This document shows, one piece after another, positions 756 through 40,200 of a DNA stretch of 64,000 bases. Position 1 is the stretch's first letter; each line of letters starts with the position of its first letter. A program made the translations under genes and the position numbers. This DNA comes from Hyalella azteca. Taxonomy: Eukaryota; Arthropoda; Malacostraca; Amphipoda; Hyalellidae. Below the pieces are notes generated by a model. That model ran no database searches and was not told the DNA's origin. It saw only the letters and a program-made list of their open reading frames with translations. The DNA is taken from contig NW_025944327.1 of NCBI RefSeq assembly GCF_000764305.2, positions 248,001 to 312,000 of the forward strand, given 5' to 3'.

Positions 756-813
756 TCATACTATACTGGAGTGTTCCAGTGAATAGTCTGGAATTAGGGA
801 AAGTCAGTAAAAA

Positions 814-1789
814 GTGAGTGAGTTACCAATTGATTGTAAAACATGGCAGCCAAAGTCTGTGTTAGTAAACCTGCCGGAGAATGTCTGGAATGCAAAAAAA
901 TGCAATTTTGGACAATTGGCACTAAGATGTAACACATGCAGACAATTTTGTCACTTCGAATGTTCACTACTTCCAGAATACCAACTTGAAAAATATTTAA
1001 AAACGAGAACATCATTCATGTGTAGAAAATGCGTTATGAACGAGAGGTGGGCGAAAGAAGCCATGGAGAGTGTGCAGACGGTTCAAGCGTCCGAGAGAAG
1101 AAGGCCTATCATGAATGGGTCTCTCTGTTCGACTAAGAGGCGGCTACCCTCAACTCCCCTCACTCCCTCAACTCCCCTTACTCCCTCAACTCCCCTTACT
1201 CCCTCAACTCCCCTTACTCCCTCTACTTCCTCCCCCCCATCCCTCACTGCTGCCCGACATGATCCGCCTACCCCGACCCTTGACCGTAGAGTTGCCCCTC
1301 TCCTCTTTAAATGCCTCGAACAAGAAACATTTAACTGTTAAGAAACGCGTTTGCTGGAGATATCTTCAGGGCAAGTGCGATGGGGAGAATGAAGAAATGA
1401 ACTGTAACTATTCTCACCCTAAGATCTGTCAAAAATTTGCAACATTTGGAAGCAAAAACCAACGCGGATGCAAAAACGGGAGAGACTGTCAATATTACCA
1501 TTCGTTCCTATGCTGGAATATTATTAAAAATGTAGCTTGCAAACGTGATTCCTGTCGGTTTTGCCACCTTAAACTCAACCTGCAATTGAGTGGTAATGCC
1601 GAAGAGAGACGTGACCCTGATAGTTCCTCCTCGGAACACAGGATAGATTATACTGCCAAACCTAAAACATCAGAAAGAAATTACATGGTTAAAAAGAAAT
1701 CAGTTCTGGGAAGGGCGAATCTATCGAAATCAAAGGTACAGAGCAGTTCCAAAAATTTCCGCACCGGCCAACACTACCTACCGGAGTGA
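814..1789 (+). mobile_element. LINE ORF1 with PHD-like and CCCH zinc fingers (frameshifted)
   Basis: A Cys-rich segment (CLECKK in one frame, then LRCNTCRQFCHFECSLL and FMCRKC in another) resembles a C4HC3 PHD finger broken by a frameshift near 898. A 15-bp minisatellite encoding STPLTP follows at 1150-1215. Another frame shift leads to three CCCH-type fingers between 1340 and 1580 (VCWRYLQGKCDG, NCNYSHP, ICQKF, GCKNGRDCQYYH, CKRDSCRFCH). A stop at 1787-1789 precedes the endonuclease ORF. ORF1 proteins of some Jockey/CR1-group LINEs carry PHD-like or zinc-knuckle modules that bind RNA. Disrupted and unlikely to be functional. Confidence 0.6.
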
Positions 1790-1948
1790 AGAAGAACAAA
1801 CAGGACTCGATATCAAGCGCAGCAATTTTTTAGGCCTACAGAGGCAAGTAGATCAGATTCAACAACAAATGCAGCAGCTGTTGACATTGCACGAACAACA
1901 GCAGAAATCACAGCAACAGCTGCAGAGTCAGAGACCCCTGGCAGTGCA

Positions 1949-2725
1949 GTGTTACAGCAACTAAGGACGCAAGGAAGGGAAGAGTCTAGCATCATGATAG
2001 CTAATATAGAGGGACTCTTCCCAAGAAGAAAACGCCACAAGATCGGCGTACTTAAAGAAATTGCTGAGACAGAAGGAATAATCATGCTTGCCTTAATCGA
2101 GTCACACCTAAGAGAAGATATCCAAGATGGAGAAATCGAGATGAAAGGCTTTCAACATTACCGAGCAGATCGAAAAGAAGGGAGAAGGATAGGAGGCGTT
2201 ATAGTCTACCTCAGAAACTTCCTCGCGGCAAAAACAGTTTTCCTGCATTTAGGCTCCAATGGATATGTGGAACATGTTATACTATACATCCCCTATCTCC
2301 ATCTGTGCATAGCTATCGTATACCGACCGCCTGACTGCCCGCCTGAAAAATTCAATGAAACTCTCGATGAACCTTCCCCAAAAATTCAACGAACCTTCCT
2401 TTCATTCCTCCTTGAAAATTCAATGAACCTTCCCCAAATATTGTGGTTGCGGGAGATTTTAACCTACCACACATACGATGGCCAAACTTGGACTGTGCAG
2501 AACGGCGCAGAAATCAAACCAGAAACCAGGCAACACAACTACTTCGATTCGCTAGGGAGCACTTGCTAAGCTAACAGGTTCTTGTGCCAACGAGAGAACA
2601 TAATATCCTGGATCAATTCTACACCAGCAATGAAGAACTGGTTGCTGTTATTCGTGTTGAGGAGACCACACTGTCTGACCATCGACTAGTGGTGGTCAAG
2701 ACAACAATTGAGAGGGGAACCTAGC
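1949..2725 (+). mobile_element. LINE ORF2 apurinic-like endonuclease domain, 3' truncated
   Basis: The first frame reads ANIEGLFPRRKRHKIGVLKE, the catalytic-type Glu in LIESHL, then YRADRKEGRRIGGVIVYLRN and IVYRPPD. After a frameshift near 2440 the sequence continues VVAGDFNLPHIRWPNLDC. SDHRLVVVKTTI near 2680-2710 completes the SDH active-site motif. These are the diagnostic motifs of the APE endonuclease that starts LINE ORF2. It continues the ORF1 region upstream in the same orientation. The reverse transcriptase that should follow is missing; from about 2725 the DNA belongs to another element on the opposite strand. A local duplication around 2370-2440 repeats a GAACCTTCCCCAA segment. Confidence 0.7.
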
Positions 2726-2779
2726 CAAGATGTTGTATGTATGTGTTTTTTGGTATGTTTTTTGTGTGATGATTTGCCA

Positions 2780-3510
2780 TTGTAGTGAACGAATGCCTGT
2801 TAAATAGTTGGCAAGCCAACGTTTGGTGTTGTTATGCAGTGTTGTTTTATAGATTTTATCCGTGAGTGGGAAGCGTGGGATGGCATCAAATGCTTGCTAA
2901 TGTCAATTGTAATCAGTAGTGTGCGATGTGCAGGTCGCTTGGAGTTAATGCCATCTTGTATACGTTGTGTGAGGTTGGTGAGGAGTGTGGTGGTGGAGTG
3001 ATGGGTTCTGTAACCGTGTTGTGTGGGTGAGAGGGGAATATGAGGCGTGATTATGGAGAGTGTAAGGCGCTCTACAACTTTGGATGGTGTGCAGAGGAGC
3101 GTAATGGGCCTGTAGGAGGCTGCCTCGGTGGGGGGTTTGTTCGGTTTCAGGGGAGTTATGATTTTGCCGGTTTTCCAGATTGATGGTATGATGCAGTTGG
3201 CAAATGAAAAGTTGGCTATATTTGTGAGAGTGCATATGATACCATGCGGGCCGAGATGTTTCAGATGAATGTTTGAGATGTTGTCTGGCCCCATGGCTGA
3301 AGAATTTTTGAGCTTTTTTATGACACGTAAGGTGTCTGATGCTGTGGATAAGATGTAGTTATTCGCCAGTGGAAATTTGTGTTTGCGCCTGTAAATATGT
3401 CTGTCTGCCCTATGCTTGGGTAGATGACTGATGCTAGCATAATAATTTACCAATATGTTGGACTGTTGTTTGCGGGAGGGGATGGACTCGTTCGAAATGT
3501 CCGCCATATC
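2780..3510 (-). mobile_element. LINE reverse transcriptase, N-terminal half (frameshifted)
   Basis: The minus strand reads IKKLKNSSAMGPDNISNIHL, SYRPITLLCTPSKVVERL, PTQHGYRTHHSTTTLLTNL and LLITIDIS. These match the RT fingers and palm of Jockey-group LINEs (GPDNI, YRPI-LL, QHGFR, D-SKAFD). The frame breaks near 2896, one base short of the KAFDA motif, and continues in the next frame as FDAIPRFPLTDKIYK to RWLANYLTGIRSLQW. The 3' half, including the YADD catalytic site, is absent. Decayed copy. Confidence 0.75.
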
Positions 3511-3675
3511 CACCCCATCCTTTGCCGGCTCGATATGGGCATTTCCTCGATATGGGTATCGACATCAGTACTCATCAACACTCCGAGATCTCGAACTAGT
3601 TGCTTCTCCTCAATTTCCTGTTGGTCAACTCAGCCATTCATCCAACTCTGGTTGATAAATGAGTACCTGGCTTGT
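3450..3675 (-). mobile_element. Second LINE fragment (RT C-terminal DLGVL motif) joined to the previous one
   Basis: The minus-strand frame reads IEEKQLVRDLGVLMSTDVDT, HIEEMPISSRQRMGWIWRTF. The pattern V-DLGVLMS-D...H...A..R-GWI-RTF is common just after the RT palm in CR1/Jockey elements. It comes from a position later in ORF2 than the adjoining fragment at 2780-3510, so the two are different insertions or a rearranged copy. Confidence 0.55.
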
Positions 3676-3837: not shown

Positions 3838-3945
3838 TACGACAAGTGCCCTCCCCCTTTACGACACGTGGGTCCCCCACTCACGGCCCGTACCCCTCAT
3901 AACCCCCACTCACGGCACATGGTCCCCCTCATAACCCCCACTCAC
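3838..3945 (-). repeat. Tandem copies of the PIP5K exon 10 donor
   Basis: The real donor reads CATGTGCC/GTGAGTGGGG on the minus strand. About 30 bp units downstream repeat it: a good copy with the hexamer at 3908-3913, a second at 3879-3884 and at least one degenerate copy near 3861. Each unit keeps the exon end (ATGTGCC) and a usable GTGAGT. Confidence 0.85.
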
Positions 3946-4205
3946 GGCACATGATCTTCCTCATCAATAGGGTCAGCAGCGTCGGCCTGGATGCTCTCCA
4001 TGGCGGTGCTGTGTGCCACCAGTCGCTGCCTGTTGATACTTCGGCTTCTGCTCAGTCCCCCGCCACCATCACCTCCACCGCCATCACCGCCACCACCGCC
4101 ACCATCAGACCCTGACCCGCCAGAGTCATCGTCACTCCCGCCACAGCCGCCAGACGCGCCCACGCCGGCGCCGCTCTTGCCGTTGTTACGACCGTTCGCT
4201 CTCTC
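3946..4205 (-). CDS. PIP5K: PIP5K exon 10 (glycine/serine/aspartate-rich insert plus STAMESIQ)
   Basis: This exon of 260 nt has an acceptor ending CGTACGACCAG and a donor GTGCC/GTGAGT, ending in phase 2. It starts [20 protein letters not shown] and runs through a low-complexity stretch of Gly, Ser and Asp of about 40 residues. It then reads [20 protein letters not shown] and [17 protein letters not shown]. The STAMESIQ segment and its acidic follow-on are recognisable in animal PIP5Ks; the Gly/Asp run is an expanded insert. Both splice junctions are duplicated in the flanking introns. The next exon should begin with the continuation to the ERLLLYIGIIDILQSYR block and is not in the window. Confidence 0.9.
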
Positions 4206-7200
4206 CTGGTCGTACGAGGGAACAATTATTATACCCAATAATTAAATTATTGATTCATTTAAATAATGATCATTTTATTAATTAGTGATTATTCTACTGG
4301 TCGTATGCGGGTAGAATTATTACCCAATAATGAAATAAATAATTAATTTAATTATTGATTAATTAAATAATTAATCATTACTCTCCTGGTCTTACGCGAG
4401 TAGAATTATTACCCAATAATGGAATCAATGAGTAATTATTTGACTCGTTGAGAAATGGAGATTAAAATAAAGACATCATATACTTTAGAATATTGTAGGT
4501 ATATAGTTAGTTGTTTTGAGCAAACATTTATTGGAATCGTGTCTATATAAATGTATAATTCTATGCTAACTCTTTTCAAAATACGCGTATCGTACTTTAT
4601 AAACGCATATAATCGCTCTACACAGGGGAAAGATAATTAGCCTTGTTAAATAGCAATTAGCTCGATAATAACGTTTTGGCTCAACTCAGAAACCAAACAA
4701 TGATAAACAAAATAAGTTAATTTTCAATGGTGCATTATATTCGACGGAATTACGAGCCGAATTATTATTATCAAACCTGTTTCTCTCTCGCCGCCAGATC
4801 CAGATTGTGGATGCCAACTAGCAAGGAGTAGTCCATGATCTTGAACGAAGCTAATACCTGCAAGAAGTAACACTGTTAGTATACTTGCTGGATATACTGG
4901 ATACTTGCTGGATATACACTGTAAATATAGATACTTAAGGTCGAGGTCACACCAATTTGCCGGGGGCGTGCCAGGCATTTGCCAGTCACGGTCCAGTCAA
5001 TATTCTTCACTGCATTTCTATAGCAGCATTCACACCAATATGACAGTAACGGTCAAGTCTAATATACATACTTCAATGAATTTCTATATATAAATATTAA
5101 CACCAGTCGTGCAAGACACATGCCATGCCCACGGTGTGAATGCTTACATGGAAATTTATTAAAGAATATTGGACTGAACCGTGACTGGCATATGCCTGGC
5201 ATGTGTCCGGCAGTATGGTGTGAACCCGGTCTTTGAGAACGAATACGTACTGCAGGTATTCTTACGGATATACTAAGTATACCCGGAGTAACAAAAACTC
5301 AATGTATACCCAAGACACATGGGGTAGTACATAAAGCTTTAAGCTTTCAGTTATCATTGCCTAATTATTATCTGCCTAGCGACCACGGAGTTAGTGCAGC
5401 GACAAATTCATACGCCGCCTGCCGTTTAGCTTCCCTTCAGCTTCAAGTGAACAGCTAGACGGTGAACACTGAGCAAGTGACACGTAGAAAATACTGCGGG
5501 TAAACGTCCACTACTGGCAAGAATGCTAGCTGCGGCACTCACCCGACAGACATGGGGCACTCACCCGACAGACATGGGGCACTCACCCGACAGTCGTGAG
5601 GCACTCACCCGACAGTTGTGAGGCACTCACCCAACAGTCATGCGGCACTCACCCGACAGTCATGCGGCACTCACCCGACTGTTGTGAGGCACTCACCCGA
5701 CAGTTGTGAGGCACTCACCCAAACTGATGAACTTAACACTCATGAAGTAAACTGATGAACTTAACATTCATGAAGTAAACTGATGAACTTAACATTCATG
5801 AAGTAAACTGATGAACAGTCTGATGATAAATTTGCGAACTTTTATACAAGGAAAACTGTAAATTTATTGCAGAATTAACGTGTTGACGTTAATTAAACGT
5901 TTACAAGGCTAACATGTCTACACGAATGAGTTGAATTCCCCCCCAGACATCTGACGTCGAATCAACGTATAATTAAACGTTATTTTGTTGAATTAACGTT
6001 AATACATATTGTTACGTTGAATGAACGCTAATTAAACGTTGTTTGCTTGTCATTTACTCGGGATAAAACAACGTACCTTGCGCTTGTAACCCAGACATCT
6101 GACGTCGAATCAACGTAGAATTAAACGTTCTTCTGTTGAATTAACGTTAATAAAACATTGTTACATTAAATGAACGCTAATTAAACGTTGTTGCTTGTTA
6201 TTTACCCGTAGGACGAGGGCTAAGACAACGTACCTTACGCTTGTAACCCAGACATCTGACGTCGAATCAACGTAGAATTAAACGTTGTTTCGTTGAATTG
6301 ACGTTAATAAAACATTATTACGTTGAATAAACGGTAATTAAACGTCGTTTGATTGAAGACAACGTACCTTGCGCTTGTAAGTGGAGCCTTTGAGATCATA
6401 CTTCTGATGCATCTTAACAGAGGAAGGCAGCAAGTTGTTCATGGTGACTAGGCGGATGTTCTTCGCGTTGCACTGCACGCACACAAGATTTTTTTAATTT
6501 ACTTAAAGAATACGTGAATAAAAACATTTATTATTTGATGGAAACAAAGTTCATTTTAATTCAGTAACAGAATACGTTAATAAAGTTTTTATTTTTTGAT
6601 TGAAATAAGTCATGCATTCTAGGTGAGTTTCACGATGAGCAAAATAGATTTTAGTAGTCATCGAAATCGATAGTAAGAGTAATACAAGTCAATATTTATT
6701 TGGAAAAGGAGATCGGTAATTTCAAATACGGTAAGTATGTATTCGAGTAATCTGTAAAACGTACTTTTATATAGAACGCAACAAGCAAAGTAGGTATTGA
6801 TAAAAATAAACAGAATGGTCTCGGGAGAAAAAATGAGCGTTTAAATTGATCGAATGTCATCATGAAAAAAATAATAAGCGGCACGGGTCTCCGCTTAGCG
6901 ATATTGCTGATATGGCGGACGCAATCAGGAACCATGGCTGTTATTTATCACCAGCAGAAATCATATAAATTCATCATAATTACTAATAATTAAGTAATCA
7001 CTGCCACCTTGATATCCAGTAAATCAGCCTAGATTATAACACGAAACTGCGGCTTTTCAGCATCAAATGACTCAAAAATTGCAGTCACTTCTAAAGCAAA
7101 GGAATAGGGCTGGTAATCGGCGAGCGCAAGGCTCTATAGCGTCAGTGTAAGGAAAAATTCATAAAAACCTGCTTGCATGGACTTCAAATACAACTTAAAT

Positions 7201-10200
7201 GACTCTAACAGAGCTAATGTTAAAACCGCGATATGACATATTTGTTATGTGAAGTCTGTTGAAGTGAAAAAGGCGTTTTGACTCTTTTTTAAGTAGCAAT
7301 CACTCTTTTTTTAAGTAGCAATCGCATCAGGCAAGAACCAGTAAGGCCCGATAAAAATCGAAAATATCGCAAAAAGTTTAATATGTAGTTGAAAATTTTA
7401 ATTTCGTGAAAAGAACGACTTTGTATAGCTCGCAAAATCGGCCTATCTATCACATCCTGACTCTGTACAAACCATAAAAGACTATTATTATAGAGGAACG
7501 ATGAAAAAATATCACTCTCGAATTTTGTAGAATATCATCACCAAATTTCTCCACAAATTAATAAGAAAGATAAATTACTTAAAAATAAATCAAGTAAAAT
7601 TTCACCTGTAAATAACCTAGAAAAACATAAAATTACGGGGAAAAAACATTTAAAATGTTTACCAAAATAAATTTTCCCACACACGACCTATTCACCAACT
7701 CAAAAATGAACATAAATAGCAAATAAGCCATTCATGATGGGAGCGAAATAAAGCAAAAGAGCGAGACAACAAAAAAAGCTTCACGAGTTGGACAAAGTTT
7801 AAAAAATAGGAATTAAGTTGAAAGGATCAATTTAGGCTTGGTGTGGGTTGGCTTTAGAAAACCAAGCAAACAAAATAATAATAATAATTGTTGATAACAA
7901 TATAAACAACAATAATTAAACGTGACATACTGCAGGTATAAAAGCGCGAGAAAACAGCTATGCACCACAAAACCAAACTTCGCACGGCATTTGAACATAT
8001 AGACATCAACTCAATACAAACATTTTGCAAGTTTAGTTCCTTCAAAATCGATCCGTTTGCTCTTACCATCACAAATTTTACTATTAAACTCAATGCTTCC
8101 TATAGAAATATAATAGAGTACGGTATTATAGCCTTTGCTAACAATATATACCGACCACGGCACTCTTTAAAGTTAAACGATTTTGCATACGCAAAAAAAG
8201 TTACGCAGTGCGCTGGAATAAGCCTGCATCGTCTCCAATCGAGGAATTTCACATGCACCTCTTCCTTTAGATAAATCACGTGCACCTCTCCCTTTAGATA
8301 AATTACGTGCACCTCTTCCTTTAGATAAATCACGTGCACCTCTTCCTTTAGATAAATCACATGCACCTCTTCCTTTAGATAAATCACGTGCACCTCTTCC
8401 TTTAGATAAATCACATGCACCTCTTCCTTTAGATAAATCACGTGCACCTCTTCTTATTACACTGGCACACTCTTCAGATAAATTCTAAGCCAATAACTAA
8501 ACAATTATAACTTTACATACGCAATTAACTCCAGCTCGGGAAAATACGCAGTTTCTTCAGAATAGGTACCTACTTGAGAGCTTTTTTAACCTAGCTAAGG
8601 ATTTGAGTTCAATTTGATGCCTAAATAAACCATTAAAACATATAAATTAATATATGTTAAAATGGAATGATAAAAATGATGATAATAATATTCAAAACAG
8701 AGAGGTTTTAGCATTCACTGAACTTTCGATCATTTTCTGAGGTCTTAAATCCAAATTTACTACCAAAAAGGAACAAAAACCGTCCAAAATAAACAAATGG
8801 ATCGATGACTAACACACGTGTTGAGTTGAAAATAGTAGCGCAGTGCACACGCAATTAATTATATCGGTAATTATTGCACAATTAAACTTCGATCAGGACT
8901 TTAGGAACAATTGACGTACGTTTCCTGGCGCTGTGTACAACTTTTATGTACTACAACTCCTCAAAACGGGACAAATGAAATCAAAAATAGACTCCAAGCT
9001 CGATAAATTTCTAGGCTCCCTGGAAAATATCCACCGCTGAAATTACACAATAAATTAATGTTAAGAATTTAAAACCTAAAAAAAACAGCGTATCTATTCC
9101 GATCCCACATAAAAACTTCACGCATCCAATGCCTCATATATAGAATAAAATAACCGAGTTTATGCATGCCTCTTGCGTTAACATGAAAACGTTTCTTTCC
9201 GCGCTCACAAAATAGAATACAAGAAACGTCATTCTCTACATTTCAGTTGTAATACCAAGTCTTAGACTATGGACAGAACCTGACACAATAGTGGCAAAGG
9301 AAGCTGAGTCTTAATGACCTCAATGCTCTCATGGCCAGAAAAATATCGAATATAAGTAAATAAATAGTGCGTATTTTAAACGAATACCAAATTGGAGAAA
9401 AATCCCTAAAAACCCTTAAAGAATTACACCTTACTTCCTCTTTAATTTTTATTAACGAATGAGTTGCGTCTATTCCCATGATAAACATAAGAATAACAGG
9501 AATAACCTATAAATTCATGGGATTACTCACCAATTAGTATTCATAAATACGGCCAGATCTACTGATATTTGTCAGAAATATAGTAAAAGAGTACCTATAA
9601 ATAAAATCGTTATTAATCGACCATCCGCTCCCAATTAAACCAAAAATCATCATAACCTTAACCTCGAAAATTAGGACATTGACCCAAATACACCATGAGC
9701 AAAATTATAGAGAAATTCATGGAAAAAAAGCCAAGTCATATCACTGCACCAGTTTAATCCAAATTACCAAACTTAATTAGCAGTTAATACCTACTGTCAT
9801 GAATTAAAATAGGATGATAAATTTGACTTGAGCGCAACGTTTTGCAGATCATGTCCATTAAAAAATCTGGTGAGATGTAATCAAAACGAACGCGTGGTGA
9901 ATTAAATGAAGCGCATTACCCAGCAAATGTGTCAACACTGAGATGGTAATCATACACTCAGAGATATAAGCGGGACAATGCAAATAGCGGTACACGCCAA
10001 AGGGTGTTATATATAGTGCCATATTCGCTCTCGGCTCGTGCTATGGGCAAGAAAGTGCGTCACTAATTGGACAATTTAACCAAGTGAATTTTTCTGAGCG
10101 AAGCCAATCAAAGTAATTCAAGCAGAGGAAGATATAAGACCTGGTCATCAAAGTCAGGTAAGTTGCTCTGTATTTTGTGTGTCAAGCGTCGTGGGTTCAT

Positions 10201-13200
10201 CACTTTTTTCTTAGGGCCCTTGAAGTGCTTTCTCGGCAGGTTATGGTCTTGCAACTGTGGCAATTAAATATTACACACTTTTATTAATAATACTCTCATT
10301 TATAAAAATATCAACATTGGTTCTTTAATAGTATGAAAATAGAAGGAAAATTAAGGATGATGCTTGAATTGGAATTTGACGGTCTTATATTAATAATTTG
10401 GCGGTCTATATACAAAACCTGAGAAAATCTTCACGAAAATATTCAGAAATTCAGATATTGACTAAAAAATTTATTAAAACATCACCAGTTAAATGCGAGT
10501 TACTTTATGTAGACACTAATTTTTTACGGTGAAATACAAATTCTGATGTATAAACGAAGTTTTACGACGTGAGAGACAAGCGCTAGACACAAAAGCAAAA
10601 TTCTTATCATGGATAAATGGGCTTCTCAATCGACGAGCGCCATAACTGTTTTCTGTCATAGCCTAATACTCCCGACGTCATATGATAGAATAGAAATAAA
10701 GATTACTTGGCAAGTTTTAAATTCAGTGTTTTAAAGGTAACACCTTTCAGCCGTACAACATTGCTATATGCAATCTTGAAAGAGCTGACACTCAGGTAAA
10801 CAAAAATGTTATGAGTGTTAACATAAATTCAAATGTGAATCTAATAGCTGTAATTTTTGGTTATGAAAACGCTTCTATAATCCTAAATGCCTAATTAATT
10901 TGTTAATTTTTTGTCCCGATGTGTTCTGCTTTTATACATCCAACGTAACAATTTTTCAAAGAAAATCATGCACATATTACTGACAAAGTTCGACTGGAGG
11001 TAATAAGTCGATCCAGTTTAGATTTAACATTAATAAGATTAAGGGTGTTATCACTATTAAGATGAATTAGCATAATGAATGGCCCATGCATCATTAATCT
11101 TGTTAAGAATGAAAGGGCTATTCGATTTTCAATGGAATCCTTCTAGGTTTTAGTGGCGAGAGGAAATTCCTAAACGATGTCCACAAAACCTATAAATAAA
11201 AAAAAAAAAAACCAAAAAAAAATCCAAATTTATACAAAAATATAAATTGCTAAACCTAAGCGATGTTCGCAAAATTGTTTAGCAGTTGGTACTGAATTAG
11301 TAGCCTTAAATTATCGCAGTAACGTAATTCTTACCAAGTCGAATGTAGGGTAGAGGTTAATAATAATAATAATTTAGTATCAATCGCGTCACATAGTGGC
11401 ATTCCTTCATTCCATCTATGAGTTGGCAAGCGTATGCTAAACAGTTACAAACTTCAGAGAGGAAATCGGTTCACTTGAAACAAAACCTCTGTAAACTCCA
11501 GACACAATAACTAATAATAGTGTTAGCAAGAAAATATTAGAAGCCTACATGGTGAATGATGGTTAATTCCTTGTGATGGTGAATTCAAGGAGCAAAACAC
11601 CATATATTTATGCTGATTATTCCTGTTCTGAGGAAGGCAGAACGAGATTTAATTAGTTCATAAATGAAACCCACGCTGCTGTAAAGCGGAGCATAAGAGA
11701 GGGTAGATTAAGGTATGCGAATAAGGATATTACGTAGCAAGGAAATATTCACATGGACAACCCAGCGTAGGAAATAAAGGAAAACATCATGCTGACTTAA
11801 TGTTACATTTTCGAAGCTGTGTTATGTTTATTCAAAATACAAATCTGGAGTTTCCGAGATAATTTTTGACCGGACTTCTTGGATGAGAGTTATTTAGAAA
11901 GCAGGTGTGGTTCGGGTAACGATCTCACGCTTTGGATAGGTCGAAACTTGGATATGATGTACTGTGAGGAATTTAGGACGTCATCGCATAATTTTGCAAT
12001 GCCATAACAGACAAGGAACTTTTCCACTCCTCAATGAAGGAAAAAAAGGTGAAAAACCGACTACCTTCCGCTGGCTTGGCCTGCGAAGCCTGCACCACTT
12101 CATGCCGGCACTCAGCACCTTCGGGAGAGCGTGTCATGAGCGGAGTTCAAGATGATCATAGAAGTTATATAATTATAATTGAGCTAAATTAAGTTTTTTG
12201 ATTACGTAGATCACTGGAAACATCAAAATATGCACGAGGTACTCATGATGTTCATATAAGTTCTGAATTCAGAGCCGTTCCTAAATTCCCGACATCATCG
12301 AAAAAACACGCGGGCGTTTAAACAAACCGATTTAAAAATGCACAATTTCGGCCGACTATGTAAGTTAAGTTTTCATCTTCTTTAGTGGATGAATATTCAG
12401 TTTGACCTGTGCTCGGCGGAACTAAACATGCATTCACGATGAACTCGACAAATGTATTTTTAACTACGACATGCATTAGTTGATATTTTTAAGCAGCTTT
12501 TGTGATGCGAGTTAAGTCGAAAAATATCCATGAATAAAAATAGATGCTTATGAGTATGGAACTGATCATGCATCACTTTACTGTTAGCCAATATACAATG
12601 AAATATTTAAGAAAAATTCATCTATTTTTGACAATCGTTAATATTCACTTTATCTTCTAGAATAGAATTCATGAGAACCGTTTGGAGTCTTGGAATATAG
12701 CAGGAAATAATCTCCCTCATCCCTAACCCCTGCAGTTCGGTAGCATATACAGTGGCAAATCGAACAAGAATCCAGGACCAAAATTAGTGGTTACCCCCCC
12801 GAAACCCTCACAACGTCTAAAATACAATACTTCTATACAAACCAGGTCAATTTATAGAATCCAACAAAGCTAAATATCATTGGCGAAAAATTTAACTGAT
12901 GACTCGCTTCAACATCCGCAGCATATACAGAAGCAACCATATATAGCAAGAAGATAGGTTCGAAACATGTTAACGATGCCTTTAAACAGACAGCAATATT
13001 CACAGCAGCCAACCACTTCCTTAAAAATAAACTTTGTTTGCAAGAACTAACTCGGGTTAACCATTCCCCCGACACCAACACCTACCCTGGAACCCGGCAC
13101 CATCAACGCAAGACTATATAAATAAACCCAAAATTTGCTTTCACCAACAAACTAATTTCAGTAATCTCCCTTAATACAGGCACCATCCGCAGAAGCCCAA

Positions 13201-16200
13201 CAAGAACCCACCCCGAAATTCCTCAGCTATGACAAGTAACGGCTGAACACGTAGCATTCCTTGCTGCCACCAAGACAGTTGGCAACTGAACAAGCAAACG
13301 CGAAGGCAACCGAGCAAACGTGGAGGCAACTTCACAAGCCAACGTGAAGGAAACCCAGCATGCTTGCCCCCAGTCAGCCAAGCAAGCCAACGTGAATGCC
13401 GCTGAGCAAACTTGGAGGCAGCTGAACTAGTCAACGCGAAGGCAGCTGGACAAGTCAGCGCGTAGGCAACTGAAGAAGCCAGCGTGAAGGCAACCGAAGA
13501 AGCCAACGCGAAGGAAACCCAGCATGCTTGCCCCCTCAGCCAAGCAAGCAAACGTGGATGCCGCTGAAAGAACGTGAAGGCAGCTGAACAAGCCAACGTG
13601 CAGGCAGCTGAAGAAGCCAGCGCGAAGGCAGCTGAAGAAGCCAGCGCGAAGGCAGCTGAAGAAGCCAGCGCGAAGGCAGCTGAAGAAGCCAACGCGAAGG
13701 TAACCGAGCAAACGTGAAGGCTAAGGAGCCATCAAAGGTGGATGCAGTTCGCACACATGAGCAGAGTGGCGGCGTCTCGTCATAGTAGACGACTTCGCAG
13801 TCGTCGCCGCTGTCGTCCGCGGCTACGAGGTGCACGCGCGGCGACTGCGCGCACAGCGTCAGAATAGCAGCCCTCCCCTTGTGGCAACCGCAGGAACAAC
13901 GTCAGTAACATGTCCTACTCCCAAACCAACAGAATAAATAAGGCTAAGTACGAATCTTATTCAGGATTAGGGTCGTAAACCTTTTTAATGCCTTCACTGA
14001 TAAATAAGGCTAGGTACGGATCATTTTCAGGATTAGGGACGTAAAACTTCTCCAATGACTAGAGCCTTCATTGAATGAGTAAGGCTAAGTACGGATCTTA
14101 TTCTTATTCAGGATTAGGGACGTAAAACTTCTACAATGACCATATGGCCTTTATTGAATGAGTAAGGCTAAGTACGGATCTTATTCAGGATTAGGGACGT
14201 AAACCTCTCCAATGACTAGGGCCTTCACTGATAAATAAGGCTAAGTACGGATCTTATTCAAAATTAGGGACGTAAACCTCTCCAATGACTATAGGGCCTT
14301 TATTGAATGAGTAAGGCTAAGTACGGATCTTATTCAGAATTATATAGGGACGTAAAGTTCTACAATGACTATAGGGCATTTTTTAAATAAATAATGCTAA
14401 GCACGGATCTTATTCAGAATTAGGGACGTAAACCTCTCCAATGACTTTAGGGCCTTCACGTGGCGAGACGAAACTCATAAACGATGTTTACAAAAACAGT
14501 TTTGCAGCTGGTATTGAATTAGTAGCCTGAAATTATCGCAGTAACGTTCTTACCAAGTCTAATGTAAGGGATCTTATTCAGAATTAGTACGGATTCAGTA
14601 CGGATCTTATTCAGAATTAGGGACGTTTACCTCTCTCCAATGCATATAGGGCCTCCACTGAATAAATTATGCTGAGGACGGATATTTTTCAGAATTATCG
14701 ACGTAAATCTGACGCCAAGAACAAGTCTTATTCCAATGCACCGGGCATTCAGCGAAAGAAAAATGCTATTATGGTTAATTAATTACATAATCATTGATGT
14801 AAACCTGACGTTAGGAACATTATGTGCATGCCTTGTCTCATTGCAAAAAGCCTTAATGACAAAGCAATGAAAGGTAGAAAAGAGCCTTCTTTGATATAGG
14901 CTCACATTAGGTGGACGTTATAACAAGCTGGCCAAGTTTAACTTTTTGTGTTCTTGAGAACTTCAACGTCACAAGCATGGAGTGAGAATTGTTTCATATA
15001 TTATTCATCTAATGCTTATATTATCGATAAATAGAGCCACGATTTCATGGTAACAGCCGCACTGTCGCACAACGCCGGAAATTAGGGTGCGAGAAGAAGC
15101 TACACTCAGAAAAATGAAGACTTTGTTCAAATAGCGATGCACTCTTAGCCTTGTGCCGGTGACCCTGGGTCAGTTTTGCATGGCAAAAAGACGTATCAAG
15201 TCTACGTGCAGGAAATGTATATACATCATTGCTTGGAAAACCTGACCCATTTATTATTCTGAATGTAGCGTTTCAGCGGTAGCTTCAAGCTGAACGTTAA
15301 CAATGAAGTAATAAGAGTTATTCATCATATGAGTACTTCCATTGTTGAATTATTCAGTGCTGTATTAATTTTCAAATTATTAAGTACAAAGGCACAACAC
15401 GTTTTAGACAAATGCCTTGAGTAATGCATAAATTATCAAAATTTTGCAACTACCAAAACAATTTACCCAAGCTCTGTGAGCTAGTGTTCCCAACTAATCA
15501 GCATGTCACCACATGGAAGACTTTGCAGTCAAATCAACCCACCGGGTATTTCATCTATATAAGAGTAGTAATATTACTCATATTATTGTTATAGAGAGTA
15601 ATCAATACTTGACGCATTGCCTGTCCCATCAAGCCATCATTTGAGCTTATACAATAATAATTAAGAAAGGCGGTAATAATATACAGTAATAATCATGTAC
15701 TATATTCACATGATTCTGCCAACAATGAACAGATTTGTTCACTACAATCATGATTTATTAGCGGTGCGATATATTAACATGGGACGAGAACAGCTCTACA
15801 AATTGGGATTGAAAAATCAATAGAACGACGAACTCATCACTGTGCATGAATAATTTATATTATAATTGTGATGTTTAGACATTTACAAGAAGAGTTGCTG
15901 CGGATTTAAATATAGAGACAAAGATAGAAATATTCGACATTCAGGCCCGTTAAATTCAATGCTACAAAATCGCGTACTCCACTCCAAGAGTGTGCAACTT
16001 ATTTTTAATTAGACATTTTCCAACAATTCGTCTTCGTCTTGAAGGCGAAAAAAACACCGCCTAAGGACACCAGATTGTAAGGATTAATTCATCAGAATGT
16101 ATACGAGGGCTAACCATGAAATGTATACACGAGGAGGCAGTCACTATTCAGAGGCACACGTCAGAAGTCGCTGATTGTGGAACGTTATAACGAGGAAAAG

Positions 16201-19200
16201 AAAAAAATTTGATGTGAGCCCGTTCTGTGAAGGGAAATTCCACTTATGTCATGAGTGTTGTTGTGACACTGCACGAAATGCGTGAACTGCATGCGGACTC
16301 GAGCTTACATTTAGAGAAAAAAACATTCAGTTAAGGCGGGCATCGATCTGCAAACATTAAAAATTTTAGCTAACAGTTATGACAAACTGCCGATTTGAAG
16401 AAACGTAGTAGAAACTCATGTGCTATAGATGGAGCTCTTTGAATATTAACCCTCTCCCGCCGTATGTCACTCTCCGGGAACATAACTTCCAATTTAAATC
16501 ATACGTAAACTATTGAGTGTAGCAACCTGAGGACGTTTATACGCATGCAGAGAACATTTTAAAGTTGTCGTACGTGGCGGCAACCATTAGTGCATGTCAT
16601 TTTGCGTTCACTAGAACGTATCCTTTTTAGCGCATTTTCTCATTTATGGAAAAAATGCACTATTGTGCTCGCCATGTCCGTCCGTCCGTCCGTCCGTCTG
16701 TCTGTCTATCTGTCTGTCCGCCCGTGACTTCACGTTTTCGTCGACTAGAAAATGCGCTCTCTGTCATTCACTGCAGTGAGTACTGCGTTATATTTTTTGG
16801 GAAGTAGGCGCGTGACAATATTATACTCCGGCTACTCATGTCAGGCAGTAGAGGGTTAAGGTTATACTCATCTCAGCAATCAGAACAATAGCAGACTCTT
16901 GAATTGCCTCATGTGAAAACGTAACACTTGAATGCCGCTACAGTCAAGTTAATGATAATATATGTTACCGACGTAAGGACCTTGGGCACTTGTGACGTCA
17001 CACGACGCAACAGAAACAATACGGTGGCAGCCAGCGTTATGACGTCACACGACGTAACAGAAACAATACGGTGGCAGCCAGCGTTGTGACGTCACACGAC
17101 GCAACAGAAACAATACGGTGGCAGTCAGCGTTGTGACGTCACACGACGCAACAGAAACAATACGGTGGCAGTCAGCGTTGTGACGTCACGCGACGCAACA
17201 GAAACAATACGGTGGCATATACATTTTCTGATGATGTTTTAGCAGTTCTATCAATTATCATTGCAAGACACCGTGTGAGAGCGCCATTTAATAACAATAA
17301 TTCTATAATATTATCTTATGAAGATGAATACTACACACGAAATGTTATGTACAACGCACACAAACACAAAAGATGGCGAACAAATAATAAATACAAATAA
17401 CAATGGATACAGAGGTCAATTACACATGTTGATTTACTTAAATTATTAAATATATTGAAATTTATTACACGAGCTAATTAGACGGTTAATTCGCCCTAGG
17501 AAAGTTCGAGACTAGCTTATAAATTTTTATAGTTTGGTAGTGATCGTCGAGAAACACACCTCAAGTAACGAACGTTAGTGCTGATAATATCTGCTACTTA
17601 CTACGTGGAGAAAGGTTACTTACAGGGATACTAGCGACTGTTATTGTAAGAAAAAATTGATATCACAAATGCTTACATGTGTTTATTATTAGGTAAGTTG
17701 GTGCTATTATGATATTTAACTAGTTAACCGTTATAATTAAGTCACCACTGGTTTAAAACAAGAGATTGTGACCAGTAGATTTGATTTGTATTCAACTAGA
17801 GAGAAGTTATTAATGGGCTAGAGGTTTTGCAAATATTTAATACAGTTTCATACTTAATCTTTCTAAATTCATTAATAGGCGTGACTCTACAATTTCAACT
17901 CATAATTATTATTAGCTTTGAGTCCGTCAAATCGAAATAACGTTCCTTGAAGCCTTTAGTTTGTCTAACCCACACGCAAAGCGTCAAACTTCCATAAATT
18001 AATTCTACATGACGGTTATAAAATTCGATATACGTATATAAATTTTTTAGGTAAATGCTGAAGCCTCCAATGTGTACCTAACTCAATGAGATCTTTATTT
18101 GAAATAAATACGATCACGGCTAAAATAAATGATTGCCCCCAGTTGAGAAAGCCAATTGTTTGTGTTTTGTTGCATTTTTTTCAGAAAAGACGTAAGGAAG
18201 TACAGCAGTAAACGAAACAAATAATTACAGCTTTAGTAAACTGAAACTCCAATATTCTTGAAATTAATTTCTAGAGAAAATAGGTATAGTACATATCTAG
18301 CAACAAAGTAAAAGATAAAAAAATAATTGTGAAGAACGAAGATTTTGTACAAGAAGCGATATCTTGGATAATAATGCTCAGACATCCAAAATATATTACA
18401 ATGACAACAGAAACAAATGAACGTAAGAAGATCAAGTAAAAATAAACACAATGGATTAAAAGAGAAATAATAATATTAATCTAATCTATTTCATAAATCA
18501 GGTGCATGACCGAGCCGATGACCCATGATGATCAAACTATTAACTGTAGTGTGAACACATAAACCTAAGGACAATAATAATTCCAAGGACGACAAGTTTA
18601 AGGACAATAAACTCTAAATACATAAATCTAATAAAAATAACCTATAAACTAGGGTGTAACTACATGAATCTTTGGACAAATTCTACAGAAAAACACCGAA
18701 TAGTAGAAAAAGGAACTAGAAATTTCTGAGATCAGTTAAGAAGATACAGTGTATGATGTGGGTAACCAGCATACACGGGACCATCACAACCGCAGACATC
18801 CCTCTAGAAAATACACACATACAACAAACATATACAAACCGTACAACTAAAACAACAAGAAATAATATCATAAACAACATATACCAAATTCATCAATCAA
18901 TTTAGCGCAATCTTTTCTCTCCAAACACATCATCACCAATTCACTCACTTCAAACAACCCCACCATACACTCTCCATCAATCACATAATACAATATATTC
19001 TTACACTCCCATGTCTTATCACTTATCAAAATAATCAATCTAGAATAGCCATCACAACAATCGCAACACTCGAATCTTCATCATTCATCAGTCACGCCAA
19101 TATGTCTCATAAACAATGGCTCGCGTTTTCCCAATACTAAACTCTATAATAACCCTCGGTAGTCCAACAAAATATCGCCCACAAAAAGCATATTCCAACA

Positions 19201-22200
19201 CCCACAGGCATAATTTAAATCTATCCAATTGCAGCATCAGGCACATTATGAGTAATCATCAGTTCACTCTGCAACTGTCGTATTTTAACTCAAACAAAAC
19301 TCCGAAAACGTAGAAAGAATTGAGCCTTTTTAAATAGTTTACCTGGCAGGCCTGGAACATAGAGAATGGCGCCAAAAGTACAAATTTCGTGAGAGGTACT
19401 AAAAGGGTGTTCAGACCTCGTCCTCGTCAATATACGATTTCTGCCGAGGTGCGGGATTTTGTTTTAGTGATTTCTTTCGAAACTTTTTTTCGAGTCCCAC
19501 GCGTGTAACCAGCTACCCCTCCTAGCACCACTCACCTGGTAGGTGTACAGGCCGAAGAACTTAGGTAGTAACGTGCGTGGGTTCTGGTTCAGGTTCTGCA
19601 AAGAGAAAAACATACAGGGTACACTGTTAGAAAAAACGGTGAAAAAACGGTCCCACTGGCGTTCTAGTGGCCGGTCGCCCCGTGAAAATAGGTAAACTGT
19701 TTCGCCATTTTTATCAAATGTTTTAAGGATTTCAACTGTTAAATTATAATAAAAACGGCAACACGGTGTTTCTTTTCACGTGCCGACCGGCCACTGAAAC
19801 GCCGGTAAAACCGTTAACGGTAATTTTTCTAGCAGTGTATAGGGTTCAAGAAAGTATTTAGGGTTCTAAACAGGGTTTAGAGTTCAAGAAAGAGTTTACG
19901 GTACTGAACAGGGTTCAAGGTTGTAAACAGAGTTTAGAATCACTGTCAGTGAGCAGACATCATCGTAAGTAAATGGGGTAAAATATTTGATCAGCTTGCG
20001 CTGTTCTTACGACACATGTTATGTTCTTACGACATATGTACGTTACAAGCCAGGGTGACTCACGTAGTGCCTAAGAACATATCCATTGGAATTCATTATA
20101 AAATCATGGCAATACGATCACATTACCAATTATATTAAAAAATTCAAATCCACGAAATCCCATTAAAAAGAACATATCCACAAGATCATGCCAATAAGAT
20201 CATATTCACAAGTTATTCATATCGTCATATCCATAATATATTCTAAGGACATCGTCTCCTTTCATGGTACAACCCGAGGCCGGATGGCAGATTGTCCTAG
20301 TCGACTCGAGGTTATCAAGTTTGATGGAATATTGATTGAAGAAATGAATTTGATGGCGAATTTCGGAGGATATTTCATGACTCTAACACTACCATCACTA
20401 ACCATGTACTGCCATGACTGTAACACTATTGACCATGTAATACCATGACTAACACTATTGGGTGGAATATTGATTGGTGGAATATATACAATGTGACACT
20501 ACCATCACTAACCATGTAATGCCGTGACTGTCACACTGCCATCACTAACCATGTACTGCCATGACTGTAACACTGTTATCACTAACCATGTAATGCCATG
20601 ACTGTAACACTGCCATCACTAACCATGGACTGCCATGACTGTAACACTGCCATCACTAACCATGTACTGCCATGACTGTAACACTGCCATCACTAACCAT
20701 GGACTGCCATGACTGTAACACTGCCATCACTAACCATGTACTGCCATGACTGTGACACTACCATCACTAACCATGTACTGCCCTAACTGTGACACTACCA
20801 TCACTAACCATGTACAGCCATGACTGTAGCACTATCATCACTAATCATGTAGTACCGTGACTGCAACACTATTGACCATGTAATACCATGACTGTAACAC
20901 TATTGACCATGTAATACCGTGACTAGGTGGTATTGACCATGTAATATCACTAACCATGTAGTATCCAGGCAGAAGTTTCTGCAGGAACTCTGCCTCCTTG
21001 TGCTGCACGGTCTTAATGATGAACTCATCATCATTAGTGACGTAGAATATAGAGCCGCTGGCGCCAGGGTTGCTCAGCTCCCTGAGGTCTTCATTGCACA
21101 GCGACACCAGGTAGTCGCTCGGCGCGATACGGAACAGGTCCCGGAAATGTCGGAACGCCGTCGGGGCGTACACTTTGAACCTGCGGTGGAGGTGGGGGTG
21201 AGGTACGGTTTAGTACACGAGGTACTGGGATACGGAACAGGTCCCGGAAATGTCGGAACGCCGTCGGGGCGTAAACTTTGAACCTGCGAGGGAGGTGGGG
21301 GTGAGGTACGGTTTAGTACACAAAGTTCTGGGATACGGAACAGGTCCCGGANACTAGGATACAATATTACCATAAAAATGTTCTTTTAAATAAAACAAGT
21401 TTCAACTTCATAACGTTCTTAGTTTTTTATTTATTAACAAATTAAAAAGGTTAGTTAATTCTGGTTCACCCTGTATATGACATATGACAATGAGGAACTA
21501 TAATAAGTTTAGTCGGGGTATGAGACGATCGGTGTGGTGTGTGTAAGTATATATGACATACACTACCTATGGCATATAAGAGATATACATATAATCCGAG
21601 TACGCTACCTGAGTAAAACATACAAGAGGTATATACCTATAATCAGAGTATGATATATGAGTATAACACATAAGAAGTATACCTATAATCAGAATATGGA
21701 TGAGCAGGCGTAGTCTCGGAGCCGTTGGGAGGGAACGAGATGGTCTCGACGACATAGAAGTCCTGGATGAGCACGTCCAGCTCTGGGATGCCCGCCAGCG
21801 ACCCCACCGCCTGGTGGATGCCCAGCTGGATGGACCCCATGATTTGGTTCGTGCCGATCTGGGCAACAGGGACGGGTGAGAGGACGCTGGTCTCACCTCT
21901 ATAATAACCACCCCCCCCTACCCTCAACACACCTCCCCTTCCCTTCTCTCACCACCTCTTTTATTCTAACCATCCCTACCTTCACCACCCTTCCCCTACC
22001 CTCACCACCCTTCCCCTACCCTCACCACCCCTCCCTCTACCCTCACCACCCCTCCCCTACCCTCACCAACCCTCCACTACCCTGACCACCCCTCCCTCTA
22101 CCCTCACCACCCCTCCCCTACCCTCACCAACCCTCCACTACCCTGACCACCCCTCCCTCTACCCTCACCACCCCTCCCCTACCCTCACCAACCCTCCACT

Positions 22201-25200
22201 ACCCTGACCACCCCTCCCTCTACCCTCACCACCCCTCCCCTACCCTCACCATCTTATAGGTGACCTGGCCGCCCTCCCCCACCCTGCGGTGGCCGATCTT
22301 GCGCTCCTTGTCCNCTTGTAGGTGGCCTGGCCGCCCTCCCCCACCCTCCACTACCCTCCCATACCCTCACCTTGTAGGTGGCCTGGCCGCCCTCCCCCAC
22401 CCTCCACTACCCTCACCAGACCTCCCCTACCCTCATCACCCCTCCTACCCTCACCACCCCTCCCCTACCCTCACCTTCTTATAGGTGACCTGGCCGCCCT
22501 CCCCCACCCTGCGGTGGCCGATCTTGCGCTCCTTGTCCCTGAGAGTGTCGTGTCGCCCCCCCGGCGTCCGGGGCTGGGAGGGCGGGGGTGTGCGTAGCGG
22601 GTCTGTCTCCCCCGCGCCCCCCGACACCTGTGGGGGGAGGAGGCATTAGTGGGGGGCACAAGGGGGCGGCATGCGGAGGGGATTAGGAATTTATGAGTTC
22701 GATACAACATACAATACTACGAGACAGAACATCATACATTCAATATTACCTACGAGACAAAACATCATACATTCAATATTACGAGACAGAACATCATACA
22801 TTAATATTACGAGACAGAACATCATACATTCAATATTACCTACGAGACAAAACATCATACATTCAATATTACGAGACAGAACATCATACATTAATATTAC
22901 GAGACAGAACATCATACATTCAATATTACCTACGAGACAAAACATCATACATTCAATATTACGAGACAGAACATCATACATTAATATTACGAGACAGAAC
23001 ATCATACATTCAATATTACCTACGAGACAAAACATCATACATTCAATATTACGAGACAGAACATCATACATTCAATATTACGAGACAGAACATCATACAT
23101 TCAATATTACGAGACAGAACATCATACATTCAATATTACGAGACAGAACATCATACATTCAATATTACGAGACAGAACATCATACATTCAATATTACGAG
23201 ACAGAACATCATACATTCAATATTACGAGACAGAACATCATACATTCAATATTACGAGACAGAACATCATACATTCAATATTACGAGACAGAACATCATA
23301 CATTCAATATTACGAGACAGAACATCATACATTCAATATTACGAGACAGAACATCATACATTCAATATTACGAGACAGAACATCATACATTCAATATTAC
23401 GAGACAGAACATCATACATTCAATATTACGAGACAGAACATCATACATTCAATATTACGAGACAGAACATCATACATTCAATATTACGAGACAGAACATC
23501 ATACATTCAATATTACGAGACAGAACATCATACATTCAATATTACGAGACAGAACATCATACATTCAATATTACGAGACAGAACATCATACATTCAATAT
23601 TACGAGACAGAACATCATACATTCAATATTACGAGACAGAACATCATACATTCAATATTANAAACGATACTTGGTCCAAACGATACTTGGTCCAAACGAT
23701 ACTTGGTCCAAACGATGCTCGGTCTCAACGATACTTGGTCCAAACGATACTTGGTCCAAACGATACTTGGTCCAAACGATACTTTGTTCAAACGATACAT
23801 GGCAAACGATAATAGGTTCAATATCGCATACATTGATCGCAGCAGAAACTAGGCTTTTGAATATACGCGCGCAGAACTCCATGGAATGACTCAAGAAAGA
23901 AATCATTCCGTGTAGACCATCTACAAAATCAACGATCATACTTAAAACCATTCATTATTTAGCGAGAATCACTCTAAGTAAATTATATTAATACTGGCAA
24001 CATTCCCTTTTGTTTGATATTTCGAAAAGTGGTTCCAGGATCAACATGGAAGGTGATCGAGATTATTGTGTGTAATCTAATTCTATAACTTTTATAGAAA
24101 GAATCGTAAAAATCGTTGTTAGATGCTGCTAAATAGTTGATGTTCGAGGCCGTTAATATGATGAAATGCACTTTCCAACGTGAGCGCTGTATTCAATCCT
24201 TCATTTATTCAAGGATCTTATATATATAGAAGAATTAACATTGAAACAAAATGATGACGTCGCACAAACCTGTCATTACTTATAAATGCTTAGTGTAGAC
24301 TTGTTTTTTTTTTTAATTGGAACGTTTCACGGAAGCCTAACTTTCGCAATTTTACATACCTACACATGCCACGATTGGCAAGGCGTCATCTTAGGGGCAG
24401 AGTTTCTTTTTAATTGAATGTCACGGTTATTTTAATTAAACTGTGAAACGGGAATTAACAGTAAACCCGCTGCTATAGTTGAGACTCTGGCTGTCAGCGC
24501 CGATTCAGAGCAAACAAGCGACTCTAATAACGGCGCCAAAGTATTTTTTTAGTGCGAGGCTCTAATAAAGGCGCCTAAATATATTTTTCAGTGCTACCGT
24601 ATGCGCGGCATCGATTTGTGCCGGCGTGTTATGTGTAAGTGTCGACCATTCAGGAACTGACAAATTTGTTGAGACAAATACAGTAATTTTTTAAGTAAAA
24701 AAAACAATTTCCTCATAACCTTTAACATTAAACTGGTTGATAGGAACTCACATCAACGGGAGGAGGTCTGGTTTTGCCATCTCTAACCCCGTCCGCTTCG
24801 CCATCTGTAAAATAAAAAAGTGTCACATACATGTCAGATTTTCAAAGGTCGATACCTACAAAGGTAGATTTTCAAAGGTAGATTTTCAAAGGTCGATAGG
24901 TTCAGAGATTAATTGTACATTGAGATTAATCACGGAACGATAAATTTCTGCAATACGTAGAAAACATCAGTTGCGTGTACATTGCATGCTCTGCTAATCG
25001 TCAGTCATTTAGCACGAGTTCGGAAGCGTGTTCTCATTGTAATAAAACTTATATAAAAGCTAATTATTTCAAAGCCTTCAGTACTGCACAAATATACAGA
25101 TAATGATGAAATACTTACCTGCCTCATCGCTTTTGATTATTTAGAAATTCATATAATAATTATTATGCACTTATCCAGCCAACAAAGTATGTATCAACCT

Positions 25201-37200: not shown

Positions 37201-40200
37201 GAGTCATATCGTACAAAATGATGCACTATCCTAAAAAAATATGCACCTGCCGTGAGCGGACGTGGCACTTATAGGTTCTCCAGCTGGACCAAACTGGGTC
37301 AGGAAGACCAACACAATTACAATAAGTATCCTTAGTATCCTTAGTATTTGTTTGGGACATAGCAGTCCCAGGCCACGATGGATCGCCGCCTCTGATTATC
37401 GTTCATATATGCCATATTGTATGGCTATTTGGACAATGACCTGCAAATTTTTTAGATTGTTATTTCTTGCTCCGTTGAACTCCATTGCACTCCAAAGCGT
37501 CATACGCTACACGCGTCCACAAATCACACAACAGACTGAGCCTCAGGAGTTGAACATTATGTTTAAATCACACAGCTAAGATATGAAGTGAAAAGTGCAA
37601 CGAAAGCGCAGAAACACTAAATTACAAGGTGCACAGACGGACAACTAACAAACAAACACTCAAACATACAAACGTAGACCGCAGAGCACACAAAACACGT
37701 ACGACCCGCATAAACACACGAATGTGCATGAGCACAGCACAAACACACAAACATACAAACGTGCATCCGCACAGCACAAACACACAAACGGGCATACGCA
37801 CAGCACAAACACACAAACATACAAACGTGCATCTGCACAACACAAACACACAAACGTGAATACGCACAGCACAAACATACAAACACACAAACGTACATAC
37901 GCACAGCACAAACACACACACACACACACGCCTATACGCATTGCAGGCCATCACACACCAGCGAGACCCGGATGACGATGCAGGTTTTCGCGCGCCGTTG
38001 AGGTCACAGCAACTGGCGTTGGTCAGTTTCCAAAACTTTTTTACTAGCAAATTGGGTTTGTCTTCGGCCACATACTAATCTTCAAGCATGCGGAAATCCC
38101 CGGTCGCCTGAACGACCGATAAGTAAAAGGAAAATAATAGCCTTAATATGCACGACACTCCAGCAATTCTCAGAAATAGCGAGGCTACCACGAAGCGGTT
38201 TCGGTAGGCAGATAATAGCAGTTAGGGTCGCTCCACACCATGTTACGTTAAATATATTCAAACTATTCATTTTTGGGCATACTATTGCAATTTTATGACG
38301 TCATAATTACGAGTAAGTGCCGTACCGTACTCGGGATATTCAACTATTTATTTCTGGACACACTATTGCAACTTTATGACGCAATATTACGAGTAAATAC
38401 TCGGGGTATCGAGCTATTTATTTCTAGATGCACTTTTGCGGTAAGAGCCAGCATGTGGTAATCCATTATCACAATTCACGCAGTAGACATCAATAGAGCG
38501 TTCGAAGAAGAATAAATCTTTTCAGTGATTTAGGCAGAGAGGGAAAGAAACAACATGCAGAGGATATGAAGACAAAACTCGAAACGGATTGAAGAATAGA
38601 CGGATCTCAAAACATGTTTCTCCAGAAGCATCGCAACTCAGGTGAGCTTTTACTGAGCCACACGGAAGTACCGGCTAAACCAACGTGTATTTCAGGCACG
38701 AATAGCATTATTATGGATAGGATGGCTTCAGTGGCGAAGACTAAATCCACCTCTGACAGACTTGAATCTTAGGTAGGAATGCCAATATGATCAACGGTAC
38801 AAATGGTCTTGCATGATCGATGCATTTTTTTAAACCTAAGGATTTAATTCAGTTCGGTAGGAATATCATGGCAATAAATTTAATACAAGCGCTAGCGAAT
38901 GCTATAAAGGTTTGATTACCATAGCAAATGAATTAGACTTACTGGTAGGAATAGCGTCGCGATATGACAGACTGATGCACAAACGTAAGTAAGATGGTCA
39001 AGATACGCAGAGCACGAAGCCATATGACAATGAATGATCGAAAATGCCTTACGAAAATGGGTCTTTTATACCATAGGTATTCAAGAGCAATTTTCTATGG
39101 CCACCTATAATACATCATCGTTAACGATAAAGCAGTACCGGTAATAGAATATCAGATGGAGCATAATGTGTGAAGGTTACTTTGAGGTCATGCCTCAGTC
39201 ACATGTCTGGTTTGTCTGCATTGAGAGACCGAAAAAGTTAAAGGAGAGAAGACCCTTATTGAAAATTATGATTGCTTCATCCGTGGCCAATCATTAACTA
39301 AATAATTTTCACGTATTGAACGGTTAAAATTACGGATTAGGACACCATAAATTTTTCTTCGGGATAACCGAATATAGGTGAAAAATAAATAGGATAAATC
39401 TGGGTTATACGTAACGCACTTAATTGCATTCAGAACAAGAGCTCAACAGATATTATTATTATTATATATAGCGGGAAATTTTATCAGAACGAAAAGGATC
39501 CGAGAGTGCAAGTTATTTCATATTGGATTACATTAGAAAACTTTAATGGCATCGTTGGCGAAGGTAAAATTTTTTAGAGAATGACATGCGAAGGTCATAA
39601 GGGCATATATATAAATGCTGGTCCCTGACCTTGAGACTTCCAGTCAGCATGGAATGTTTGGGAAGAAAATTATTTGCCATGAAAGTAATTATCAATAAAT
39701 AATTTAATATAGGATCTTCTCGAGATTTTGAATGTGCCTAACGTCAAAATCGAATAGTTAACAAGAAATGTGTAATCCAAGTTGGTAGTTCTGAGAAATT
39801 CACATCACGCTTAATTTAATTAAAAGAAATATACCTGAATAAATAAATAAAAAGTGATAAAATAATTTAAAACATTACTTGCGCTCAATCTCTTTCATTA
39901 CCTTGAGCAATATTACCGATGACTTCAGCGCAAACTTCACGAGATCGGATTGATGATGAGTCCGTATTTCGAAAACTTGAAGCAATACTGAGCTTTTCAT
40001 CCACTGAGTGTTCAGAGCCAGCGTTCCATTTACACAGCGAGCCACTTTCACTGGTTGACGCTGAGTCCAGGAAGGCCACGTGACGACAAATTGAACCTGT
40101 TCGAAAATTTGAAGCAATACTGAGCTTTTCATCCACTGACTGATCAGAGCCAGCGTTCCATTCACACAGCGAGCCACTTTCACTGGTTGACGCTGAGTCC

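Follow-up and report, generated by a model that had tools for sequence, protein, structure and literature searches.

Tandem arrays that copy splice junctions in a PIP5K gene and other genes of the amphipod Hyalella azteca resemble the mirages of amphioxus

Genes of the amphipod Hyalella azteca carry mirages, tandem arrays whose units span an exon-intron junction; this kind of structure is known, and its abundance here is striking. The likely explanation is that local tandem duplication is very frequent in this amphipod and that copies covering a junction are tolerated in the same way as intronic ones. The window examined (the whole stretch of 64,000 nucleotides that was analysed) had been reported in a preliminary description to hold arrays at seven junctions of a PIP5K gene, five donors and two acceptors. 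A uniform ungapped self-comparison round each junction returned the same list, with tandem copies across 7 of the 14 PIP5K junctions (the donors of exons Ea, Eb, Ec, Ee and Eh and the acceptors of Ec and Eh). Junction-copying minisatellites are no oddity of amphioxus, as 12 of 102 junctions of this amphipod outside PIP5K (7 donors and 5 acceptors) are spanned by tandem copies.

The PIP5K gene in the window is a partial type I gene on the minus strand with seven exons, Ea to Eh, recovered by tblastn with a human protein and the relatives found as queries; two more exons lie below the window. Its core shares 88.5% identity with that of the isopod Idotea, and no insect among the matches listed exceeds 79.4%. 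In the numbering used previously, Ea is exon 3, Eb exon 4, Ec exon 5, Ed exon 6, Ee exon 7, Eg exon 9 and Eh exon 10, with exon 8 missing. The exons are given below, all by tblastn with the 14 junctions placed by sequence.

22475..22627, minus strand: PIP5K exon Ea, first intron base 22474
21683..21858, minus strand: PIP5K exon Eb
20955..21180, minus strand: PIP5K exon Ec
19536..19595, minus strand: PIP5K exon Ed, both borders without an array
6368..6472, minus strand: PIP5K exon Ee, end ..STYKRK
4777..4857, minus strand: PIP5K exon Eg, borders uncrossed by arrays
3946..4205, minus strand: PIP5K exon Eh

The seven arrays, most of which were also picked up by Tandem Repeats Finder, are as follows (a slash marks the junction).

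21910..22538, minus strand: array at the Ea donor, 20/61-bp units and diverged copies of the exon end (Tandem Repeats Finder, self-comparison)
21573..21698, minus strand: array over the Eb donor, 46-48 bp, TATAG/GTATAC (Tandem Repeats Finder, self-comparison)
21126..21351, minus strand: array over the Ec acceptor, 103 bp, identity 117/123 (Tandem Repeats Finder, self-comparison)
20376..20963, minus strand: array over the Ec donor, 37 bp, ACATG/GTTAGTGA, 11 junction-crossing segments (Tandem Repeats Finder, self-comparison)
5942..6380, minus strand: copies over the Ee donor, 134/157 bp, AAGCGCAAG/GTACGTTG (self-comparison)
4201..4437, minus strand: array over the Eh acceptor, 89 bp, CGACCAG/GAGAG (Tandem Repeats Finder, self-comparison)
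3874..3964, minus strand: array over the Eh donor, 32 bp, ATGTGCC/GTGAGTGG (Tandem Repeats Finder, self-comparison)

The units of these arrays are unrelated in sequence and the arrays were therefore born independently, as had been proposed for each border. The earlier estimate that each copy includes 5 to 60 nt of exon holds roughly for the junction-crossing copies (about 3 to 55 nt, with 64 nt in one suspect Ea copy) and fails at the Ea donor, where most crossing units reach only about 1 nt into the exon. The introns are lengthened from their ends, in agreement with the intron growth suggested previously. The next PIP5K exon below the window also has an array at its donor, with a period of 40 bp and about 30 nt of exon. 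Separately, a 29-bp array of about 32 copies (22707-23660) starts 80 bp upstream of the Ea acceptor and stops at an N at 23661, where a 16-bp array starts.

An exon is absent between Ee and Eg, and its body was found neither in the window by tblastn nor among the seven genome matches of the PIP5K profile. One more array lies in this interval.

5534..5720, minus strand: 22-bp array, unit GACTGTCGG/GTGAGTGCC (..DCR/V) (Tandem Repeats Finder)

This unit fits the end (..DCR) and the donor of the absent exon, and the relatives P0037 and P0120 have RDCR ahead of the next exon (VLxSF).

By position, the PIP5K junctions are not clearly above the array background. Arrays cover 7-39% of the window, and like duplications include 26-33% of the positions sampled in the PIP5K region, depending on the cut-off, and 42-50% of the PIP5K positions that lie 40-600 nt off a junction. 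The 7 of 14 junctions with arrays (6 of 14 at the strictest cut-off) correspond to P values of 0.07-0.15 against all positions and 0.44-0.61 against the near ones. For comparison, the same genome (518,993,365 bases in 4890 contigs) was searched, and the PIP5K profile recovered PIP4K. Nine chaperonin regions and 18 kinesin gene regions (part of 141 kinesin matches) were added, picked by adjoining profile matches and size and not by arrays. Four PIP4K introns were read from the sequence; CCT and kinesin introns were inferred from adjacent profile matches together with GT..AG and were accepted for 47 of the 94 neighbouring match pairs, with the other 47 left out. The CCT-epsilon of this sample is 94% identical to that of the talitrid amphipod Trinorchestia longiramus, the closest named species among the matches listed, 88% to one further protein and 80-83% to named decapods, krill, mantis shrimp and isopods among the same matches. 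An amphioxus origin of the window was considered and rejected on these CCT-epsilon and PIP5K identities.

Of 24 complete or partial genes for which introns were accepted, 9 had junction arrays. Outside PIP5K the arrays lie at 2 of 8 junctions in PIP4K, 2 of 48 in CCT/HSP60 and 8 of 46 in the kinesins (44 used in the position and birth tests and 2 later ones without arrays). An inspection by eye had suggested that about 8 of the 11 PIP4K junctions carry arrays, a figure that was dropped when the uniform rule gave 2 of 8 in the four ordered introns, and the idea that every gene has junction arrays was dropped with the 2 of 48 of the CCT genes. Across the gene groups, the frequency of junction arrays rises with that of arrays overall; array cover is 0.5-10% in eight of the nine CCT/HSP60 regions and 22% in the ninth (C1035, which has no accepted intron). 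The preliminary description considered a process that targets junctions, and this proposal was not borne out by position, as the 12 copied junctions outside PIP5K compare with 15.2 per 100 expected from random positions of the same introns. Whether the dropped introns had hidden arrays was addressed with 184 exon-match edges, resolved or not, a test that needs no junction choice and excludes the two late kinesin pairs. Among the CCT edges, 6 of 98 lay in copies, compared with 9.5% of the intron positions; for the kinesins the values are 11 of 86 edges and 19.4%. Among positions 24-90 nt inside exons of the genes other than PIP5K, some of which fall beyond short exons, 28 of 1100 lie in copies.

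These counts can be accommodated by a simple course of events. For the mutational mechanism, we infer that tandem duplications would arise along introns, the units seen at junctions being about 16-233 bp. A duplication covering an exon-intron border would place a second exon end and splice site within the intron, where the array may then be enlarged by slippage or unequal exchange. The copy joined to the exon body should still yield the original mRNA, presumably through splicing at the exon-proximal copy, and because of this a junction copy may be as harmless as an intronic one. Junction duplications would then survive, presumably as neutral changes, like those within introns, and duplications within coding sequence would be removed. 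Of the causes proposed previously, the one supported is that duplications are tolerated when they leave a functional site. The claim that the arrays create many decoy splice sites stands as well: of the 56 copies at 20 junctions (shifts of at most 800 bases), 53 retain GT/AG, and the set includes the doubtful C814 intron (shift 604), which is outside the position and birth count. Copy identity reaches 0.973 for the dinucleotide, compared with 0.937 in the exonic part and 0.907 in the intronic part, and there is no sign of a purging of decoys.

The explanation that competes most directly with tolerated duplication is that splice junctions are favoured sites for the birth of tandem duplications, for example through a transcription-, R-loop- or repair-linked process. 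An array with many copies covers much of an intron but was born only once, and therefore a count of births was made in which each array is one event and one unit is placed in the collapsed intron. Outside PIP5K, this count gave 12 births at score 15, where 8.10 were expected (P 0.12). Score 20 gave 12 with an expectation of 6.10 (P 0.02), and score 25, the strictest cut-off, gave 11 with an expectation of 5.05 (P 0.015), all P values being uncorrected for settings; the kinesins alone gave 8 against 4.90, 8 against 3.55 and 7 against 2.59 with rising cut-offs. With PIP5K included, 18 births compare with 10.45 expected (P 0.021, again uncorrected for settings). The inclusive count and the strictest count without PIP5K speak for seeding at junctions. 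However, the mildest cut-off outside PIP5K does not reach significance, the position-matched comparison is without excess, the exon-match edges fall below the intron rate and the birth model depends on the present unit length. PIP5K was itself selected because of its arrays, and the excess in this gene (6 against 2.35, P 0.03) is gone at stricter cut-offs (3 against 2.13 and 2 against 1.95). We consider preferential birth at junctions unlikely. The excess of births outside PIP5K nevertheless leaves room for a junction bias of at most about two-fold. On a doubtful but conceivable extension, junctions would be hot spots at which a transcription- or repair-tied process makes tandem duplications arise roughly two-fold more often, and introns would regularly lengthen by array growth from exon borders.

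Local assembly error had also been raised in the preliminary description. Such an artefact, in which contig overlaps are left unmerged or haplotypes are stacked in a scaffold built from short reads, could explain parts of two of the seven PIP5K arrays. Single Ns lie at array edges at 21352, 22314 and 23661; the N at 21352 truncates the third copy of the Ec acceptor, and the Ea array has a copy at shift 225 that matches the real junction at 93 of 94 nucleotides and lies in sequence that ends at the N at 22314. This Ea copy is probably a contig-join artefact (an unmerged overlap) or a second haplotype. The missing PIP5K exon and a PIP4K exon out of order beside adapter-like sequence point the same way. 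Against an artefact as the general cause, which we regard as very unlikely, the other five arrays are free of any N, many copies differ from each other, and junction arrays are present in other genes too. A selected function, in which extra splice sites serve robust or alternative splicing, is more improbable still. Decoy dinucleotides are kept slightly better than their flanks (109 of 112 against 968 of 1049), but the difference is small, the copies were chosen by their match at the junction, and junctions are copied no more often than intron positions. Tolerance of frequent local duplication remains the reading that we prefer.

The preliminary description took the phenomenon to be undescribed, and this has to be revised. 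Passages of two papers describe amphioxus genes with minisatellites at junctions, named mirages (PMC3087553, PMC3902484). In the amphioxus globin BflGb6, units of 150-160 bp are present as 6 and 3 units in two haplotypes, and RT-PCR suggests that regular splicing of the globin mirages is undisturbed, according to passages of the first paper (PMC3087553); the corresponding passages of the second treat PGBD5 mirages and also mention Adh and TnC (PMC3902484). As far as these passages go, the amphipod arrays are alike in having tandem units with exon and intron parts across the boundary, in affecting both 5′ and 3′ exon boundaries and in keeping AG/GT signals in many copies, and unit lengths are 10-160 bp for amphioxus and 16-233 bp for the amphipod. 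They differ from the amphioxus mirages in belonging to another phylum (an amphipod crustacean), in having been counted against intron positions and in being known here from genome sequence. A literature search over titles and the starts of abstracts, with few subscription papers covered, returned no crustacean report of such arrays. For the draft genome of the amphipod Trinorchestia, a passage gives 6.18% tandem repeats (PMC7062882).

Two further systems invite comparison. The amphipod arrays resemble ordinary intronic minisatellites in periods, divergence and density, and are unlike them in that the unit includes an exon border. Introns are reportedly also gained when an exon segment containing AGGT undergoes tandem genomic duplication, the coding unit making a new intron. 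Tandem duplication that copies splice signals is shared with this model, but the amphipod units already contain the junction and intron and lengthen an existing intron; a coding unit making a new intron was not found among them. Arrays of this kind confuse gene prediction and assembly, and they supply decoy splice sites as well as material from which introns could lengthen or new ones form. With near-identical sites in tandem, RNA-seq could directly test the choice made by the spliceosome.

Several irregularities of the assembly were noted in the comparison genes. A PIP4K exon (protein 164-206) lies after the last exon in L002 (contig C1979, about 38814), directly preceded by adapter-like AGATGTGTATAAGAGACAG, and shares a 21-bp array with the intron of its proper place. 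This exon is probably a misplaced contig. The adapter-like sequence, which we take to be the Nextera mosaic end, is a further sign of short-read scaffolding. In L045, a stretch with 236 Ns, one chaperonin exon match is present twice (1699-1884 and 4576-4761), by local duplication or misassembly. Two successive sets of identical kinesin exon matches (profile 62-138 and 137-210) at C226:44005-46735, partly in L068, are a local duplication.

In the window itself, none of seven open frames scanned against Pfam had a match above a curated cut-off, the best being a weak one to reverse transcriptase. An 815-codon open frame on the minus strand (39885-42332), without a Pfam match above the cut-off, contains a 132-bp tandem duplication (39968-40228) whose length is a multiple of three. 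Within the PIP5K intron below Eh, frames at 811-3564 resemble pieces of a non-LTR retroelement, with weak zinc-finger matches on the plus strand and a weak reverse-transcriptase match on the minus strand (2800-3564).
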